Of a stretch of DNA of 38,080 nucleotides, positions 31,771 through 38,080 are shown piece after piece; the first letter of the stretch is position 1; each line of letters starts with the position of its first letter. Made by a program: the position numbers and the translations under genes. The stretch is from Bacteroidetes bacterium GWF2_35_48 (GTDB taxonomy: Bacteria > Bacteroidota > Bacteroidia > Bacteroidales > GWF2-35-48), in NCBI GenBank assembly GCA_001769125.1, contig MEOG01000015.1, positions 1-38,080 of the forward strand. The letters run 5' to 3'. Under the pieces are notes generated by a model that ran no database searches, was not told the origin of the DNA, and worked only from the letters and a program-made list of their open reading frames with translations.

Positions 31771-31810
31771 AAGAATTTTTTCGTTTCAGGTTTAAGGTTT
31801 AATGTTTCAC

Positions 31811-31859
31811 GTTGAGCGTTGAGCGTTGAGCGTTGAGCGTTGAATATTGAATGTTATAT
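31811..31859. repeat. Heptamer array GTTGAGC
   Basis: Four perfect GTTGAGC units (31811-31838) are followed by GTTGAAT, ATTGAAT and GTTATAT in the same 7-nt phase. The array lies 41 nt upstream of the TlpA-like gene start, where its promoter would be expected. Confidence 0.9.
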
Positions 31860-31864
31860 TTTAC

Positions 31865-31898
31865 CACTAAGACACTAAGGGCACAAAAATTCACTAAG
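31865..31898. repeat. CACTAAG short repeats
   Basis: CACTAAG occurs at 31865-31871, 31873-31879 and 31892-31898, with a partial copy in between (GCACAAA). It separates the two GTTGANN heptamer arrays and is a different repeat word. Confidence 0.7.
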
Positions 31899-31909
31899 AT
31901 TGAAAAGTT

Positions 31910-32014
31910 GTTGCAGGTTGAGCGTTGAATATTGAATGTTGAATGTTGAATGTTGAATATTGAATATTGAATATTGAATATTGAATATTGAATATTGAAT
32001 ATTGAATGTTGAAT
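31910..32014. repeat. Heptamer array of 15 units (GTTGAAT/ATTGAAT)
   Basis: From 31910 there are exactly fifteen 7-nt units: GTTGCAG, GTTGAGC, GTTGAAT, ATTGAAT, GTTGAAT x3, ATTGAAT x7, GTTGAAT. The phase never breaks. Irregular related words continue to about 32047. No spacers are present, so it is not CRISPR. A minus-strand open frame here translates to FNIQYSI-type repeats and is an artefact. Confidence 0.93.
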
Positions 32015-32102
32015 GTTGTTTATCGAATCGAAGTTGAATGTTATGCGTTACAAATTCAGAACGCCTAAACTGTTGCATCTTCCTCGGCAGACAAAAAAGC
32101 GA

Positions 32103-32440: not shown

Positions 32441-32876
32441 ATGAAAACCGAACTAAAGGCAATAATATTTTTTTCTGCCTTTTCACTTTTCTCTTTTTTC
32501 TGCCTTTATCAGCACAGAATAAACAAAAAAACGACTCTTTATTACATCTTATTTTCATAGAAAACTCTGACACACATGATATTTCTTTATAATCAGAATT
32601 TAGCTGAGAAATGTCGTATTCAGACCCGGAGAAGGCTATAAAAAAGCCGTTTCCAAGTCGAATATTAATATCAGAAATATTTATGTTGCATTACAAAATG
32701 ATGTAAAAACACTTGAACATTTCAAAAAAGTGCTTGAAATCGCCAATAAAAAAAATGATCGGAAATGGATTGCAATTATAGCAAACAATATGGATGCATG
32801 CTACAAACACCTTAAAGATACAAATCTCGCCATTGAATATTATATAAAAGCAAATAACTATATTTGTGTTCCATAA
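32441..32876 (+). pseudogene. Decayed signal-peptide/TPR protein gene
   Basis: Pieces of one protein can be read in changing frames. From ATG 32441 the first frame gives a signal-like start (MKTELKAIIFFSAF, then a Phe-rich core) and stops in TAG. A second frame near 32540 reads DSLLHLIFIENSDTHDISL. A third near 32611 reads SYSDPEKAIKK. A fourth runs 90 codons without ATG from 32604 to the TAA at 32874-32876 and contains LEHFKKVLEIANKKNDRKW and ACYKHLKDTNLAIEYYIKA, which fit TPR helices. The order matches Bacteroidota TPR sensor or regulator proteins (signal peptide, SLLHLIENSDT-type linker, TPRs). At least three frameshifts and the missing C-terminus show it is dead. It ends 11 nt before the next gene. 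Confidence 0.75.
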
Positions 32877-32887
32877 CCAAAAAAAAT

Positions 32888-34204
32888 ATGAAGATCCTTC
32901 TGATATCTCCTGCCATTTATGATTGGCGCAGAAAATTGATAAAACAAAAACGAGTTTGGTTACCGGGACTTACGCTTCCATATATTGCGGCATTACTACC
33001 CGAAAATTATTTAATAACAATTGTTGATGAAACCTCAGAAGAAATACCATTTCATGAACATTGGGATTTAGTCTGCATCTCCTCTATTGGGGCAAGTTAT
33101 ATTAGAGCCGCGGAAATAGCACGATTGTTTAAAGTAAAGAATATTCCTGTAATTGTGGGAGGCATGGCTGCTACATTGACCGGAACAAACGGGTTTGATG
33201 ACGATTTTAATTCATTTGTTGAAGGCGAAGTTGAAACAATAATTAATACTATTATTTTAGATTTTGAAAATGGCAATTTGAAAAAAAACTACAAAGGTGA
33301 AATGGCTAATTTGTCTTCTTTACCAATACCTAAATATGAACTTTTTAATAAAAAAAAAATAGGATTCTGGCTACCTGTGCAAACATCTAGAGGGTGCATA
33401 CATAAATGTCCTTTTTGTTCGGTTGCTGCATTTAATCATTTTAAGTTCCGACAAATGCCGATTGATTATGTAGTTGCATGTATAAAGAGAGGTAAAGAAT
33501 TAGGTTACTCAAATTTTACATTTATTGACGACAGTATTGCTTCGGATATCAATCACTTGAAGACTCTCTGCGAGGCAATAATACCCTTAAAAATATATTG
33601 GATGACGCAATGTACTATAACTATTGCTGAACATCCAGAAATACTCAATCTGATGGCTCAAAGCGGCTGTACTGTTCTCAGTATCGGAATAGAATCAACC
33701 AATTCTGAAAGTATTGCATCAATAAATAAAACATTTAACAATACATTAAATTACCAAAAATATTTTAAAATTATCCGTTCGTATGGCATCGACATTAGCA
33801 CCGAAATGATGATTGGGCTCGATGGTGATACCGAAGATATTTACAATGAATTTACACAGTTTGCTATTAAAAATAATATAACACTGCCTCGATTTTACAT
33901 CGCAACGCCGGTGCCTGGCACAAAGTTCTATGCAGATTTACTCAAGCAGAATAGAATTTTTAATTTTGATTATTTTAATTATACCGGCTCACAATTGGTA
34001 TTCTATCCGAAACATCTTAATTACAAAAATCTGGAAGATAAATACTGGGCAATGTATGATAAGGTTTATTCAACAAAAAATATTCTAAAGCGCTATTTAT
34101 TGTCGCGACCAAAGCGCAGTTTATTATCCAATATTTTTACTCTTGCTGCCAATTTTCACTATAAAAAACATATTAAACAAAGAATTCCACCAGGTATCGT
34201 ATAA
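32888..34204 (+). CDS. Cobalamin-binding-type radical SAM protein (first copy)
   Basis: The product has 438 residues from ATG at 32888 (MKILLISPAIYDW); a TTG eight codons upstream is unlikely as the start because it overlaps the TPR relic. Residues 1-145 resemble the B12-binding Rossmann domain (LPYIAALLPENYLITIVDE, DLVCISSIG, PVIVGGMAATLTG, FVEGEVE). The DxHxxG cobalamin ligand motif is absent, as in many members of this class. The radical SAM core has SRGCIHKCPFC with the 4Fe-4S cysteines 170, 174 and 177, then FTFIDDSIASD, CTVLSIGIES, STEMMIGLDGDTED and ATPVPGTKFY. Such enzymes often methylate or rearrange lipids and natural products. It opens a five-gene run, 3 nt before the next gene. 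The substrate is unknown. Confidence 0.9.
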   Translation: MKILLISPAIYDWRRKLIKQKRVWLPGLTLPYIAALLPENYLITIVDETSEEIPFHEHWDLVCISSIGASYIRAAEIARLFKVKNIPVIVGGMAATLTGTNGFDDDFNSFVEGEVETIINTIILDFENGNLKKNYKGEMANLSSLPIPKYELFNKKKIGFWLPVQTSRGCIHKCPFCSVAAFNHFKFRQMPIDYVVACIKRGKELGYSNFTFIDDSIASDINHLKTLCEAIIPLKIYWMTQCTITIAEHPEILNLMAQSGCTVLSIGIESTNSESIASINKTFNNTLNYQKYFKIIRSYGIDISTEMMIGLDGDTEDIYNEFTQFAIKNNITLPRFYIATPVPGTKFYADLLKQNRIFNFDYFNYTGSQLVFYPKHLNYKNLEDKYWAMYDKVYSTKNILKRYLLSRPKRSLLSNIFTLAANFHYKKHIKQRIPPGIV

Positions 34205-34207
34205 AGT

Positions 34208-35350
34208 ATGTATAAAGTATTAAAAATAACAAATGCAGCTGGAATTAAAAAATTTGTAAGATTCCCCGGTAGTCATATTTTTAAAAAATCTGACCATTGG
34301 ATACCGCCTTTGATCACTGAAGAAATTAAAAGATTTGATATTACAAAATATGATTATTATGCGTATGGTAAATCAAAACTTTTTGCTGCAATAGACGAAA
34401 AGGGTAAATGGGGTGGTAGGATAGCTTGTTTTATAAATTCAAAATACATTGACAAAACTAAAAAACACGAAGGATTTTTTGGGTTTTTTGATGCAATTGA
34501 TAATCCGGAAGTTGTCAAAGTCCTTTTCAGCGCAATAACAGAAGAATTTCGCAAAAACAATATTACGGATATTATTGGACCAATAAACTTTTCTACAAAC
34601 GAAGAAGTGGGACTGCTCATTGATGGATTTGATATAAACCCTACCTTCATGACCAACTATTCTAAACCTTATTACAAGGATCTACTAACAGGTGTAGGTT
34701 TTCAAAAATTGGTAGACTTATATGCTTATGAATGGCAATCCAAATGTGTTTTCTCCGATAAATTTTATAGGATTGTTGAAGTCGTGAAAAACAGGAGCAC
34801 GGTTAAAATTCGATGTTTCGACAAAAACAATTTTCAAAATGAACTTGATACTTTATGGCCAATATATAACGAAAGTTTTAAAGATGTTTGGGGGTTCACG
34901 CCCTTAACAAAAGTCGAATTTACTGAATTGTGTAATAGCTTTAAATTATTTGCCGATTTTGATATAATTTTAATCGCTGAACTGAACAGTAAGGTAATTG
35001 GATTTTGTTTGATGCTTCCGGATATTAACATCTTGATAAAAAAAATAAACGGTAAACTATATCCTTTTGGAATATTTACTTTACTTACTCAAAAAAACAA
35101 AATAAAAAACCTGCGATTGAATGTCTTAGGGATATTGCCAGAATACAGAAATCTTGGAGTGTTTGCACTGTTTATAGACCAGATGGAAAAAATAGTAAAT
35201 AAAAAAGGATATCAAAAAGCTGAATTGTCAGTCATTCTTGAGTCAAACATAGAAATGATTCGTTTAATGAAAAGTTTGGACTTCAAGCCGACAAAAACAT
35301 TCAGAGTTTATTGTAATACTGTTGAGAATCTGAAAGCACATACATTATGA
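34208..35350 (+). CDS. Long GNAT-family acyltransferase, YghO type
   Basis: The protein has 380 residues. The N-terminal half has the pattern of the long GNAT proteins of the E. coli YghO type: KKFVRFPGSHIFKKSDHWIPP (in two parts: FVRFPGSHIFKK and SDHWIPPL), LFAAIDEKGKWGGRIACFIN, GFFGFFDAIDNPEV, DIIGPINFSTNEEVGLLIDGF, PYYKDLLTGVGFQKLVDLYAY. The C-terminal half holds a second GNAT-like core (IILIAELNSKVIGFCLMLPD, LGILPEYRNLGVFALFIDQM with the acyl-CoA binding turn, KAELSVILESNIEMIRLMKSLDF). I recall that the Caulobacter ceramide synthase bCerS is a GNAT protein of this kind, so N-acylation of a lipid base is one possibility; this is inference. It overlaps the next gene by 4 nt (ATGA). Confidence 0.82.
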   Translation: MYKVLKITNAAGIKKFVRFPGSHIFKKSDHWIPPLITEEIKRFDITKYDYYAYGKSKLFAAIDEKGKWGGRIACFINSKYIDKTKKHEGFFGFFDAIDNPEVVKVLFSAITEEFRKNNITDIIGPINFSTNEEVGLLIDGFDINPTFMTNYSKPYYKDLLTGVGFQKLVDLYAYEWQSKCVFSDKFYRIVEVVKNRSTVKIRCFDKNNFQNELDTLWPIYNESFKDVWGFTPLTKVEFTELCNSFKLFADFDIILIAELNSKVIGFCLMLPDINILIKKINGKLYPFGIFTLLTQKNKIKNLRLNVLGILPEYRNLGVFALFIDQMEKIVNKKGYQKAELSVILESNIEMIRLMKSLDFKPTKTFRVYCNTVENLKAHTL

Positions 35351-36738
35351 GAATATTACTTGTACGACCGCGAGCCCCGAAATACACAATCGGTTTGAAA
35401 AATATTATGGTATGTGAGCCATTAGAACTGGAATATCTTGCCGGAGCTATTGATAAAAAGCACGAAGTAGAAATACTCGATTTGATACTTGAAGATATTT
35501 TAGAGAAAAAAATCAAACAATTTAAACCCGATATTTTAGGCACAAGCTCTTACATAACCGGGGTAAACGAAGTTAAAGCAATATGTAAAAGAACTAAAAA
35601 TATCAACAGCAAAATTATTACTGTTGTAGGCGGTGTGCATGCAAGCTTGAATCCTGATGATTACGAAAACAAATCTATAGACCATATTATACGGGGTGAA
35701 GGCTTGAAACAATTCAACGCCCTTATTGATGCCTTAGAACAAAATAAAACATTTACACCCAGCATTTATTCCAACACTAAAGATTTTTTAGCGATTGATA
35801 TCGAAAACCTTCCATTGCCAAGAAGAGAGCTTGTAGCCAAATATCAGAAGAAATACTATTATCTGTTTCATCAGCCTGTTACAATTATCAAAACAACATT
35901 CGGCTGCCCCTTCAAATGCAATTTTTGTTATTGCCGTGCACTTACCGATGATAAGGTTTATTCACGAAGTCCTGAGAATGTATTAAAAGAGTTGCAGGAA
36001 ATTAAAAACAAAGACGTTTACATTATTGATGACACTTTTTTTGTGAGTAAGAAACATGTAATGGATATCCATGCGCTTATTGTTAAGAATAACATTAAAA
36101 AAGAATATCTGGTTTATGGTCATTCCGATTTCATCATAAATAACCCCGATGTTATAAAAGTATGGGCTGAAATAGGGTTGAAAGCCTGTATAATAGGGCT
36201 TGAATCTCCAAAAGACACAGAACTTAAAAGTTTCAATAAAGTTTCAACTGTAGATAAAAACAGAGAAGCAATTAAAATACTTCAGCAGAATAAAATTGAT
36301 ATATATGCATCATTTATTGTTGACCCTGCATGGACATTGCAAGATTACAAAACACTAGACAGATTCATAAGGGAAAATAAATTGTTTTACATAGTTATTC
36401 AACCATTAACACCTATCCCCGGCACTTCTGTTTTTAACGAAGATGATGATTATATAATACCACGAAAGTATTATGAATTATGGGACATGCAGCACTCTGT
36501 ATTAAAACCGCTGTTAGGTGAAAAAAGGTTTTACAAAGAAATCAGAAAGATATATATTAAAACCATTTTTAATCCGTTTCGCACATCATCATTGAAGCTC
36601 AACACCGTCCCGTCGGTATTTTCTTTAAAATATTTCAGACTAATTGCCGGTGTGATGAAGATATATTTTGATTTGAGAAAAGCAAGCAAGCATAAGAATT
36701 TAATAGACAAAACCAATGCTTTCAATCAAAACCTATAA
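35347..36738 (+). CDS. Cobalamin-binding-type radical SAM protein (second copy)
   Basis: The protein has 463 residues. The N-terminal B12-like domain shows MRILLVRPRAP, LELEYLAGAIDKKHEVEILDL, PDILGTSSY, ITVVGGVHASLNPDDYE and IIRGEG, again without a DxHxxG histidine. The radical SAM core has TTFGCPFKCNFCYCRAL with cysteines 187, 191 and 194, plus an additional Cys two residues later, then VYIIDDTFFV, GLKACIIGLESP, IYASFIVDPAWT and IQPLTPIPGTSVF. The C-terminal 90 residues are Lys-rich and helical. The general architecture is like the hopanoid C-3 methylase HpnR and related B12 radical SAM enzymes, but I cannot assign a substrate. It starts within the stop of the GNAT gene and overlaps the following gene by 23 nt, so it is part of a coupled operon. 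Confidence 0.9.
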   Translation: MRILLVRPRAPKYTIGLKNIMVCEPLELEYLAGAIDKKHEVEILDLILEDILEKKIKQFKPDILGTSSYITGVNEVKAICKRTKNINSKIITVVGGVHASLNPDDYENKSIDHIIRGEGLKQFNALIDALEQNKTFTPSIYSNTKDFLAIDIENLPLPRRELVAKYQKKYYYLFHQPVTIIKTTFGCPFKCNFCYCRALTDDKVYSRSPENVLKELQEIKNKDVYIIDDTFFVSKKHVMDIHALIVKNNIKKEYLVYGHSDFIINNPDVIKVWAEIGLKACIIGLESPKDTELKSFNKVSTVDKNREAIKILQQNKIDIYASFIVDPAWTLQDYKTLDRFIRENKLFYIVIQPLTPIPGTSVFNEDDDYIIPRKYYELWDMQHSVLKPLLGEKRFYKEIRKIYIKTIFNPFRTSSLKLNTVPSVFSLKYFRLIAGVMKIYFDLRKASKHKNLIDKTNAFNQNL

Positions 36739-37891
36739 ATCAATAAATGAAATAAACTCTTCTGATTGGAATGCTGCAATCACTAACAATGATTATTTCA
36801 AATCACATGAATTCTTAAAAATCATTGAAGAATCAAATATTGAAAATAGTACGTTTTGGTACATAATGGTTTTTGAGAACAACGAAATAATTGGTGCCGC
36901 AGTTTTCAGTTCATTTATTGTTTCACTTGACTTATTTCTTGACAAACAGGGCAAGAAAGCAGTAAAACTAATAAGAAAGTTTTTCCCTAACTTCTTGCGG
37001 ATACGGTTCTTGTTTTGTGGCTTACCAATTTCATTAGGCAAAGATACAATCCTGATTAAAGACACAAGATACAAAGATGTCATACTCGAAGCCATCGTAA
37101 AAGAGTCTAAACTTATTGCTAAAACGAACAAAATAAAAATTATAAATTTCAAAGAATTTTATCTTAATGATAAAATCGGATTAAATAAACTGTTGTCACT
37201 TGGTTTTATACAATCATGGAGTATCCCATATATTGATTTTCACAACACGTACGAAAATTTTTCTGCGTATCTGCAAGCACTTCGTCATACATTCAGGAGG
37301 CAAATAAAAAGCAATATGTCTAAAGTAAATTTCGATGCGGTAGGAGTTGTTCAAGAAAAATTAGATTTCGATCATGCTGTTATTGAAATAATAAATCCGT
37401 GCAATGCCGATGCAAATACAATTTATGAGCAGTACATAAATATCATGTCAAAAGCTAGTTCTGTATTAGAATTCTTAAACGTAGATTTTTTTGTAAATTA
37501 TCTCAAGAACACCAATCAATCGAAAATACTTATTTTGCGCAAGAACTCAACTATTATAGGCAATGCAATATTGGTTGAAGAAGGGAATAAACTAACTTTT
37601 ATGCTAATAGGAATTCGTGAAGAATACAGAAACATTTATGCAACGTATTTTAATATTTTAAATGCGGTAATTGCATACGGTATTCACAACAAATTCACTA
37701 AAATCGGAATGGGACAAACCTCCTATTACGTAAAGACAAGAATGGGCGGGCAATTAACTCCTATGGTTACTTATAATTACTCTTCTAATAAATTTATTAA
37801 TATTATGCTAAAAGTTTTTAATAAACTAATATTTCCAAAAGTCAACCCTCAGCAATATAAGGTGTTTAAACCTCTTAAGAATAATATCTAA
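36716..37891 (+). CDS. FemAB/GNAT-like acyl- or aminoacyltransferase
   Basis: The protein has 391 residues. It begins MLSIKTYKSINEINSSDWNA, resembling the W-(D/N)-x opening of FemAB-like proteins. A first half with an AAVFSSF strand is followed by LRHTFRRQIKSNMSKV and a second GNAT core: ILILRKNSTIIGNAILVEE, LTFMLIGIREEYRNIYATYFNIL, then KIGMGQTSYYVKTRMGGQL and TPMVTYNYSS. The GMGQTSYxxKxRMG stretch is characteristic of a FemAB/Acetyltransf_6-like family found in lipid, glycan and cell-wall gene clusters. The start lies 23 nt inside the previous gene. The substrate is unknown. No signal peptide or membrane span is visible, so it acts in the cytoplasm. Confidence 0.75.
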   Translation: MLSIKTYKSINEINSSDWNAAITNNDYFKSHEFLKIIEESNIENSTFWYIMVFENNEIIGAAVFSSFIVSLDLFLDKQGKKAVKLIRKFFPNFLRIRFLFCGLPISLGKDTILIKDTRYKDVILEAIVKESKLIAKTNKIKIINFKEFYLNDKIGLNKLLSLGFIQSWSIPYIDFHNTYENFSAYLQALRHTFRRQIKSNMSKVNFDAVGVVQEKLDFDHAVIEIINPCNADANTIYEQYINIMSKASSVLEFLNVDFFVNYLKNTNQSKILILRKNSTIIGNAILVEEGNKLTFMLIGIREEYRNIYATYFNILNAVIAYGIHNKFTKIGMGQTSYYVKTRMGGQLTPMVTYNYSSNKFINIMLKVFNKLIFPKVNPQQYKVFKPLKNNI

Positions 37892-37906: not shown

Positions 37907-38080
37907 ATGAAGATAACACTCATAAAACCAACCATCGGATATAGTACTACAAAAATATACAAAGAAAAAGCAGTAATATGGAATTCTATACTACGCTCGG
38001 TTATAAATTGCGTTTTTATATAATTGAAAATTTAAAGTTAACAAACTATTTAATTCCGTTTTTCCTGTTTCAGTTTTCGT
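37907..38080 (+). pseudogene. Decaying N-terminus of a third B12-type radical SAM gene
   Basis: ATG at 37907 begins MKITLIKPTIGYS, the usual first strand and loop of B12-binding radical SAM proteins, continues to KIYKEKAV and stops at TAA 38021-38023 after 38 codons. Just after KEKAV the DNA (GTAATATGGAATTCTATACT and following) would read close to VMEPILLGIIA, the conserved MEPLxLGILA helix of this family, if a few single-base insertions were removed. This points to frameshift decay and not to a natural short gene. It lies 15 nt after the FemAB-like gene and would have continued the operon. The right edge of the window prevents seeing the rest. Confidence 0.5.

Follow-up and report, generated by a model that had tools for sequence, protein, structure and literature searches.

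The window analysed here is the complete contig MEOG01000015.1 (C15), 38,080 bases in length, from the 5.98-Mb, 142-contig genome of Bacteroidetes bacterium GWF2_35_48, for which a completeness of 98.14% is given; the sequence could therefore not be extended to the right. Its right end carries four intact open reading frames (ORFs) of 438, 380, 463 and 391 amino acids (aa) in the order rSAM1-GNAT-rSAM2-FemAB, that is, two radical S-adenosylmethionine (SAM) proteins alternating with two transferase-type proteins. An earlier note on this DNA had described them as one coupled operon. The coordinates were confirmed, together with a 3-nt gap between rSAM1 and GNAT (34205-34207), a 4-nt overlap between GNAT and rSAM2 (35347-35350) and a 23-nt overlap between rSAM2 and FemAB (36716-36738). 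Loci and genomes are labelled below with L and G numbers, G000 being the host. The operon and the features at its end are:

32888..34204, + strand: rSAM1, radical SAM protein, 438 aa (Pfam, orthologue alignment, AlphaFold2 model)
34208..35350, + strand: GNAT of the YghO/bCerS (ceramide N-acyltransferase) type, 380 aa (Pfam, YghO similarity, neighbourhoods, tree)
35347..36738, + strand: rSAM2, HpnR-like B12-binding radical SAM protein, 463 aa (Pfam, NCBIfam, alignment)
36716..37891, + strand: FemAB, FemAB_like tandem-GNAT acyl/aminoacyl transferase with a FemX-type fold, 391 aa (Pfam, alignment, model)
37907..37983, + strand: start of a fifth gene, probably a third radical SAM protein (rSAM3), interrupted (N-terminus alignment)
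37984..38080, + strand: end of a dispersed, insertion sequence-like repeat, at which the contig stops (copies on other contigs)

The same set of genes was found in distant genomes. In a phylum sample of 395 genomes, FemAB relatives were present in 34 (E ≤ 1e-8) and rSAM2 relatives in 17 (E ≤ 1e-25), and G378 was the only genome besides the host with both. Its locus, L115, also contains rSAM1 (40%), an alpha-oxoamine synthase (AOS) between rSAM2 and FemAB, a 23S-rRNA-IVP-type ORF, a cytochrome P450, a sulfotransferase and a divergent GNAT; the L115 rSAM1 was matched in 4 of 195 genomes of the class of G378 (E ≤ 1e-60), the three others at 34-37% identity. A profile scan of genome contigs with the rSAM2 alignment gave 39 loci, 19 of which have rSAM1 (37-50%) adjoining or near rSAM2. 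These 19 and L115 make up a core set of 20 loci, the window being kept apart, and the other 20 rSAM2-bearing loci served for comparison. Genes were counted by tblastn (E ≤ 1e-8). Since the core is defined by the rSAM1-rSAM2 pair, these two genes are no independent result; the counts are also biased towards the core, from whose loci several queries came. GNAT was found in 18 of the 20 core loci (absent in L141 and L149) against one of the comparison loci, and FemAB in 19 against two, the core locus without it being L139, whose contig ends 0.9 kb after its AOS. Weak rSAM1 matches also occur in 16 of the 20 comparison loci. The exact order of the window is repeated in L137 (Spirochaetales) and L138 (a metagenome-assembled genome, MAG, of Aminicenantes), so that the arrangement goes beyond chance and the four-gene operon was borne out.

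The 19 named core loci span about nine phyla. Ten are members of Bacteroidota, and the others come from Spirochaetales, Aminicenantes, Gemmatimonadetes (2), ANGP1, Eisenbacteria, Planctomycetota, Ignavibacteria and Acetoanaerobium. Fourteen of the 19 are MAGs or uncultured, and single records among them could be mis-binned, while L150, L151, L153, L154 and L169 are from named strains with no MAG label. Isolates with the cluster include Aestuariivivens sediminis, Flavobacterium enshiense DK69 and Terrimonas sp. NS-102. In an unrooted tree of concatenated rSAM1 and rSAM2 (20 tips, LG+F+G4), the window and L137 stand apart from the rest (100/100). Since the window groups with a spirochaete although ten other tips are named Bacteroidota, transfer of the cluster between phyla is likely and would be the simplest reading of this tree. 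The GC content of the operon (31.9%) falls within that of other host stretches (29.1-36.2%) and is therefore no marker of transfer. Variant clusters were also seen in L154 (Acetoanaerobium pronyense) and L155 (a Deltaproteobacteria MAG), with GNAT, FemAB, two or three rSAM2-like genes and a SAM methyltransferase, the GNATs being divergent. Another form of the FemAB-rSAM2 pair lies in L161 (8950-11359, a Bacteroidales MAG), where the two genes overlap near the contig end.

The earlier note had seen no substrate-defining gene in the window, and candidates for such genes came from the relatives only. AOS is present in 7 of the 20 core loci and a class III aminotransferase in 10, so that 17 contain an amine-forming gene of either kind, the exceptions being L137, L138 and L145. 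P450 genes occur in 12 core loci, MMPL proteins in 7, PEMT-like and second methyltransferases in 4 each, a desaturase in 3, a short-chain dehydrogenase/reductase (SDR) and a lipid kinase in 2 each, and a sulfotransferase in one. All these families, including the two amine-forming ones, score 0/20 in the comparison loci. Scans of three among the seven cluster AOS gave 329-376 bits with BioF, 297-356 with KBL and 311-344 with serine palmitoyltransferase (SPT), all below the cut-offs (640 for SPT). In a tree of 13 tips the seven cluster AOS are separated from SPT and from the AOS genes of the host (100/99). Concerning the aminotransferases, that of L151, the member dissected, has a C-terminus matching long-chain acyl-ACP reductase (AAR) and PigE; the amine gene of L154 is an aminotransferase alone. 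Such a fusion, judged by its domains, would be a sensible route from acyl-ACP to an amine. It resembles PigE and AAR in joining a class III aminotransferase to an AAR-like C-terminus, but its domain order is reversed relative to the NCBIfam PigE profile and it belongs to relatives, not to the window.

The host genome itself has four AOS genes, one KBL, one BioF-like in a biotin-type operon and two of no assigned type. No canonical SPT was detectable in the host genome. The operon of the window is also not a canonical SPT-bCerS-CerR operon, as it contains no AOS or epimerase; CerR-like proteins were absent among the matches listed in the 20 core loci, and the AOS of core loci, where present, is not SPT. 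Elsewhere in the host, one unassigned AOS (G000:C73, L183 7868-9031) lies amid genes that by eye are ketosynthase-, epimerase- and lipid-kinase-like, possibly another amino-lipid pathway.

The GNAT protein gives 24.5 bits with Pfam Acetyltransf_1 (cut-off 20.7). A protein on an E. coli plasmid that bears the annotation YghO matches 97% of its length at 30.6% identity (E 1e-47). A figure legend in PMC9386255 gives yghO as the homologue of CC_1154 from C. crescentus, the N-acyltransferase on which dihydroceramide formation depends, and the kinship with YghO and the bacterial ceramide synthase (bCerS) proposed in the earlier note was thus supported. In a statement of PMC11087976, bCerS is proposed as a cytoplasmic enzyme that acylates 3-ketodihydrosphingosine. 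YghO-type matches to GNAT were also obtained in 43 records of a plasmid collection (some chromosome-sized), all below 60% identity, and in 123 of 149 order relatives including the host (E ≤ 1e-5). At this threshold the window GNAT is the sole match in its genome, and the congener G001 has neither GNAT nor FemAB.

The neighbourhoods of the GNAT matches among the relatives were compared over at most 1.5 kb on each side, shorter for some loci. SPT and/or a CerR-like epimerase lies within about 1.5 kb in four of the five best non-host matches and nearby in 2 of the next 24. As noted in PMC11334938, known sphingolipid producers among the Bacteroidota have their three ceramide genes apart from one another, so that missing linkage in these 24 is no evidence of another function. 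At L040 the neighbour is SPT, with 482 bits to the PDB SPT and 621 bits in NCBIfam (cut-off 640). The remaining one of the five (L004/L039) adjoins the end of an rSAM1-like gene. At L039 (10557-12135, G124) this C-terminal part (34%, 115 residues) stands directly upstream of a bCerS-like GNAT, in a genome from another family of the host's taxonomic order, and may be a degraded copy of an rSAM1-GNAT pair. In a 47-row GNAT tree, the window protein groups with the cluster GNATs of L137, L138 and L144 (99/96). This group is outside a clade of four SPT-linked rows, whose neighbours are L039 and the cluster GNATs of four flavobacterial loci (joint group, 99/94). Two more rows with linked SPT are placed among the other proteins of YghO type. 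Cluster membership needs two changes on this tree; therefore, such GNATs may have entered the cluster twice or have been exchanged with SPT operons.

These results bear on the idea that the operon only decorates a ceramide or sulfonolipid from the host's ordinary pathway, with GNAT as a duplicate bCerS. The branching of the flavobacterial GNATs beside SPT-linked bCerS-type proteins agrees with it, and AOS genes elsewhere in the genome match SPT in 6 of the 12 carrier genomes searched (E ≤ 1e-80), most clearly in those of L145 and L148 (57-58% identity, 42-49% in the other four). Nevertheless, the other six carriers have no SPT match at this threshold, 17 of the 20 clusters bring their own amine-forming gene, and in the present host no SPT match comes near the threshold and GNAT is the only YghO-type match (E ≤ 1e-5). 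A role limited to tailoring is considered improbable.

rSAM2 combines the Pfam domains B12-binding (PF02310, 68.6 bits) and Radical_SAM (PF04055, 65.2 bits), with a CxxxCxxC motif at C187/C191/C194 that is invariant in a 3-row alignment. With both motif and domain, it is classed from its sequence as a cobalamin-binding radical SAM protein. It matches NCBIfam HpnR (TIGR04367), the hopanoid C-3 methylase and itself a B12 radical SAM enzyme, with 220 bits over residues 1-402 and shares its domain order, but remains far under the equivalog cut-off of 650. The MMPL proteins of cluster relatives match an HpnN-like transporter model weakly. A hopanoid pathway was set aside, given the 220 against 650 bits and no hopanoid-synthesis gene among the neighbours scanned.

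rSAM1 gives 56.2 bits with Pfam Radical_SAM. Its CxxxCxxC cysteines (C170/C174/C177) are all invariant in a 20-row alignment of orthologues, which are 37-50% identical to the window protein, and 18 of the 20 rows have PGIV at their end. The mechanical ORF list placed its start at TTG 32864, whereas this alignment favours ATG 32888. The nearest NCBIfam models are PhpK, HpnJ, ApyD and BchE (75-89 bits, all far below their cut-offs). No B12-binding domain was found above the Pfam threshold in the window protein, and in the L115 orthologue it reaches 28.6 bits, below the cut-off of 32.1. The AlphaFold2 model (pLDDT 93.5) is nearest to AprD4 (6fd2; Z 33.1, root-mean-square deviation 2.5, 384 aligned residues, 19% identity), followed by MgmA (Z 28.2), CysS (27.1), OxsB (25.7) and TsrM (25.6), its predicted fold being typical of radical SAM enzymes with a B12 domain. 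The B12-like domain of AprD4 is not known to hold cobalamin. Therefore, the description of both radical SAM proteins as B12-type is safe for rSAM2 alone. The likeness to AprD4, a radical SAM 1,2-diol dehydratase, extends over nearly the full length of the fold, but rSAM1 does not stand among aminoglycoside genes. A tetraether-synthase (GDGT) type seems less likely for rSAM1, the structure of GDGT-MAS (7tol) scoring Z 12.1, far behind AprD4. In relatives of the host's order, tandem arrays of rSAM1-like genes (28-32%) were observed, with three genes at L121 (9947-14009) and two at L124 (3615-6354).

FemAB matches Pfam FemAB_like with 50.4 bits (cut-off 27). Residues G333, Q334, T335, K340 and G344 are invariant in a 22-row alignment, and orthologue alignment backs the start at 36716. 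Some orthologues are divergent: that of L115 scores 19.6 with FemAB_like, under the cut-off, and matches Acetyltransf_6 instead, and those of the flavobacterial loci L150-L152 and L169 are shorter and 22-25% identical. FemAB was detected in 2 of the 149 order relatives, the host being one, and was absent from the congener at E ≤ 1e-5, so that the idea of an ordinary host gene was abandoned. The model (pLDDT 91.6) finds FemX (7z6a, E 7.2e-12) as best Foldseek match, with Sbb17/Sba18 and FemA also leading and MprF and alanyl-phosphatidylglycerol synthase (A-PGS) lower down among other GNATs. TM-scores by query length are 0.50-0.57 for the FemX/FemA rows and 0.38-0.53 for MprF and A-PGS. The fold is that of these tandem-GNAT aminoacyltransferases, but identities are about 6-11%, and any use of aminoacyl-tRNA by FemAB is hypothetical. 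The model is compatible with an acyl- or aminoacyltransferase whose acceptor might be a lipid, as it is for MprF.

The folds of rSAM1 and FemAB would also agree with a different product, a diffusible secondary metabolite such as a fatty-acylated antibiotic of amino-sugar or peptide-like type, in which GNAT and FemAB would acylate or aminoacylate a polar core deoxygenated by rSAM1. AprD4 was solved with paromamine, FemAB is close to FemX and to the streptothrisamine-binding peptide synthases Sbb17/Sba18, the distribution is patchy and transferable, and L137 and L138 have no lipid neighbours. MMPL pumps, moreover, can export secondary metabolites of this type. Against such a product, GNAT belongs to the YghO/bCerS family and its nearest kin outside the cluster are mostly in SPT neighbourhoods, rSAM2 is HpnR-like, the relatives have acyl-ACP-reductase-like, desaturase, PEMT/ICMT-like and lipid-kinase genes or domains, and no glycosyltransferase, nonribosomal peptide synthetase or polyketide synthase family appeared in the selection of neighbours scanned. 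On balance, an antibiotic-like product is regarded as unlikely, although it is the rival to be taken most seriously.

The fifth ORF follows FemAB at 37907, and about 25 codons later it is broken off by the repeat that ends the contig. Its 26-residue N-terminus aligns best with the extra radical SAM protein of the Flavobacteriaceae cluster L142 (score 68; the next, 42, is the window rSAM1), and it probably encoded a third radical SAM protein. The repeat, with its left edge at about 37983, recurs as 90-98 bases at 91-100% identity on C134, C43, C37, C17 and C104 of the same genome, standing at the contig end on the first four, and a sixth contig has 41 bases of it at 85%. Because this near-identical stretch is found on five other contigs, at the end in four, it is read as the mark of a dispersed insertion element that cuts gene 5. 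No continuation of the gene was recognised by eye in 3.5-4 kb of the repeat-sharing contigs, where no search was made. The cut gene, and the position of the operon alone at the contig end after about 1.1 kb with no gene-like ORF of 80 aa or more, might indicate an acquired operon that is decaying and makes nothing in this genome. As all four complete genes have intact frames with the motifs of their families, and an extra radical SAM ORF was found in only 4 of the 20 core loci (L137, L142, L144 and L154, some stretches being short) and may be dispensable, such a remnant is very improbable.

Taken together, the shared core, the interchangeable amine modules and the lipid-modifying neighbours argue for the core of a horizontally spread pathway to a sphingolipid-like lipid, an N-acylated long-chain amine with radical tailoring, to which we give a probability of roughly 60% on the basis of families and neighbourhoods. 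The data show a conserved and widely spread gene set, the families of its proteins and neighbours of lipid type; the reactions and the product are a proposal. In some genomes a long-chain amine would be formed by AOS from an amino acid and an acyl thioester, and in others by acyl-ACP reductase and class III aminotransferase, both from genes seen in relatives. GNAT would then N-acylate it as bacterial ceramide synthase does, as its homology and neighbourhoods suggest. From family and fold, the HpnR-like rSAM2 could alkylate the lipid at an unactivated sp3 carbon with the help of cobalamin and SAM; C-methylation by the radical SAM proteins is what we infer. rSAM1, and probably rSAM3, may perform a second radical reaction, either an AprD4-like rearrangement or deoxygenation or the formation of a C-C bond. 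The FemX-like enzyme, by its fold, might add a further acyl or aminoacyl group to an amine or hydroxyl of the lipid. In some relatives, the product would be hydroxylated by P450, desaturated, given head groups by a lipid kinase and a PEMT/ICMT-like methyltransferase, and exported by MMPL. A more ambitious version is a phylum-spanning, horizontally moved cluster for an undescribed class of sphingolipid-like lipids, with exchangeable amine modules, N-acylation of the ceramide-synthase kind, at least two radical SAM steps by which inert alkyl carbons are altered or joined (the two chains might be cross-linked in this way) and a cap added by the FemX-type enzyme; this is put forward tentatively, at somewhat under an even chance.

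Several observations weigh against a lipid pathway. The two loci that share the gene order of the window have no AOS or class III aminotransferase in the stretch examined, and any amine source for this subtype is a guess. Their flanks show no lipid context, with ATP synthase, AsnA, a universal stress protein and a methyltransferase in L137 and an amino-acid permease, a sulfotransferase and a helicase in L138. No SPT near the threshold was found in the host genome, whose AOS matches are 30-35% identical to SPT, and its fifth gene is interrupted. The comparison loci are no matched null, being sorted by the lack of a close rSAM1-rSAM2 pair and several of them short. Single family members also exist outside the cluster, namely rSAM1-like genes at seven loci (L121-L124 and L127-L129, tandem in two), FemAB-like genes at L045, L119, L120, L125 and L126, and rSAM2-like genes at L116-L118, none of them with another core gene or a GNAT match. 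In addition, the nearest fold of rSAM1 is an aminoglycoside enzyme, and among those of FemAB are peptide synthases, such as Sbb17, that depend on aminoacyl-tRNA and belong to an antibiotic pathway. The lipid context that had been predicted was found in many other genomes but not in L137 and L138. Neither of the two outcomes named beforehand as speaking against it, neighbourhoods tied to a non-lipid pathway and a GNAT clustering away from bCerS/YghO, clearly occurred, though these two loci have no lipid neighbours. As a whole, the earlier idea was largely upheld; a B12 type stays putative for rSAM1, and no canonical SPT was detectable in the host.

In the rest of the window, a single 7351-aa ORF (478-22533) contains repeats of PKD-like and Ig-like domains and ends in a CHU_C signal for type IX secretion. 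By these domains it is assigned to a giant surface or adhesin protein; a 336-aa ORF without Pfam match follows. Tandem repeats of 7 bases (CGTTGAG x4.9 and TTGAATA x13.4, 31810-32018) lie between a thioredoxin-like gene and the operon, and a remnant of a TPR-like coding sequence, judged by eye, stands directly upstream of rSAM1 (32600-32876). A scan for promoters and terminators remained at chance level (38 found against a mean of 32.3, and 3 against 2.7).

Compared with bacterial ceramide synthesis (SPT, bCerS (CC_1154/YghO) and CerR), the cluster shares the YghO/bCerS kind of N-acyltransferase and, in relatives, AOS (7/20), SDR (2/20) and lipid kinase (2/20). It differs in that its AOS fall apart from SPT in the small tree, no CerR-like match was listed, a class III aminotransferase is the amine gene in 10 of the 20 clusters, and two to four radical SAM proteins and a FemX-like transferase are added. 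In the open-access literature, viewed by title and start of abstract among the matches listed (subscription papers and preprints being outside this scope), no description of the cluster was found. Each enzyme family is known, and it is the combination and the modular amine supply that appear undescribed in the literature covered.

If the proposal is true, it would add a radical-chemistry branch to bacterial sphingolipid-like metabolism and might explain some lipids that have no assigned genes. The cluster is present not only in uncultured phyla but also in Flavobacteriaceae and Chitinophagaceae strains, which makes the proposal directly testable. If true, the proposal also suggests that bCerS-type enzymes serve pathways not begun by SPT, a point of relevance to surveys in which bCerS is taken as the marker of sphingolipids.

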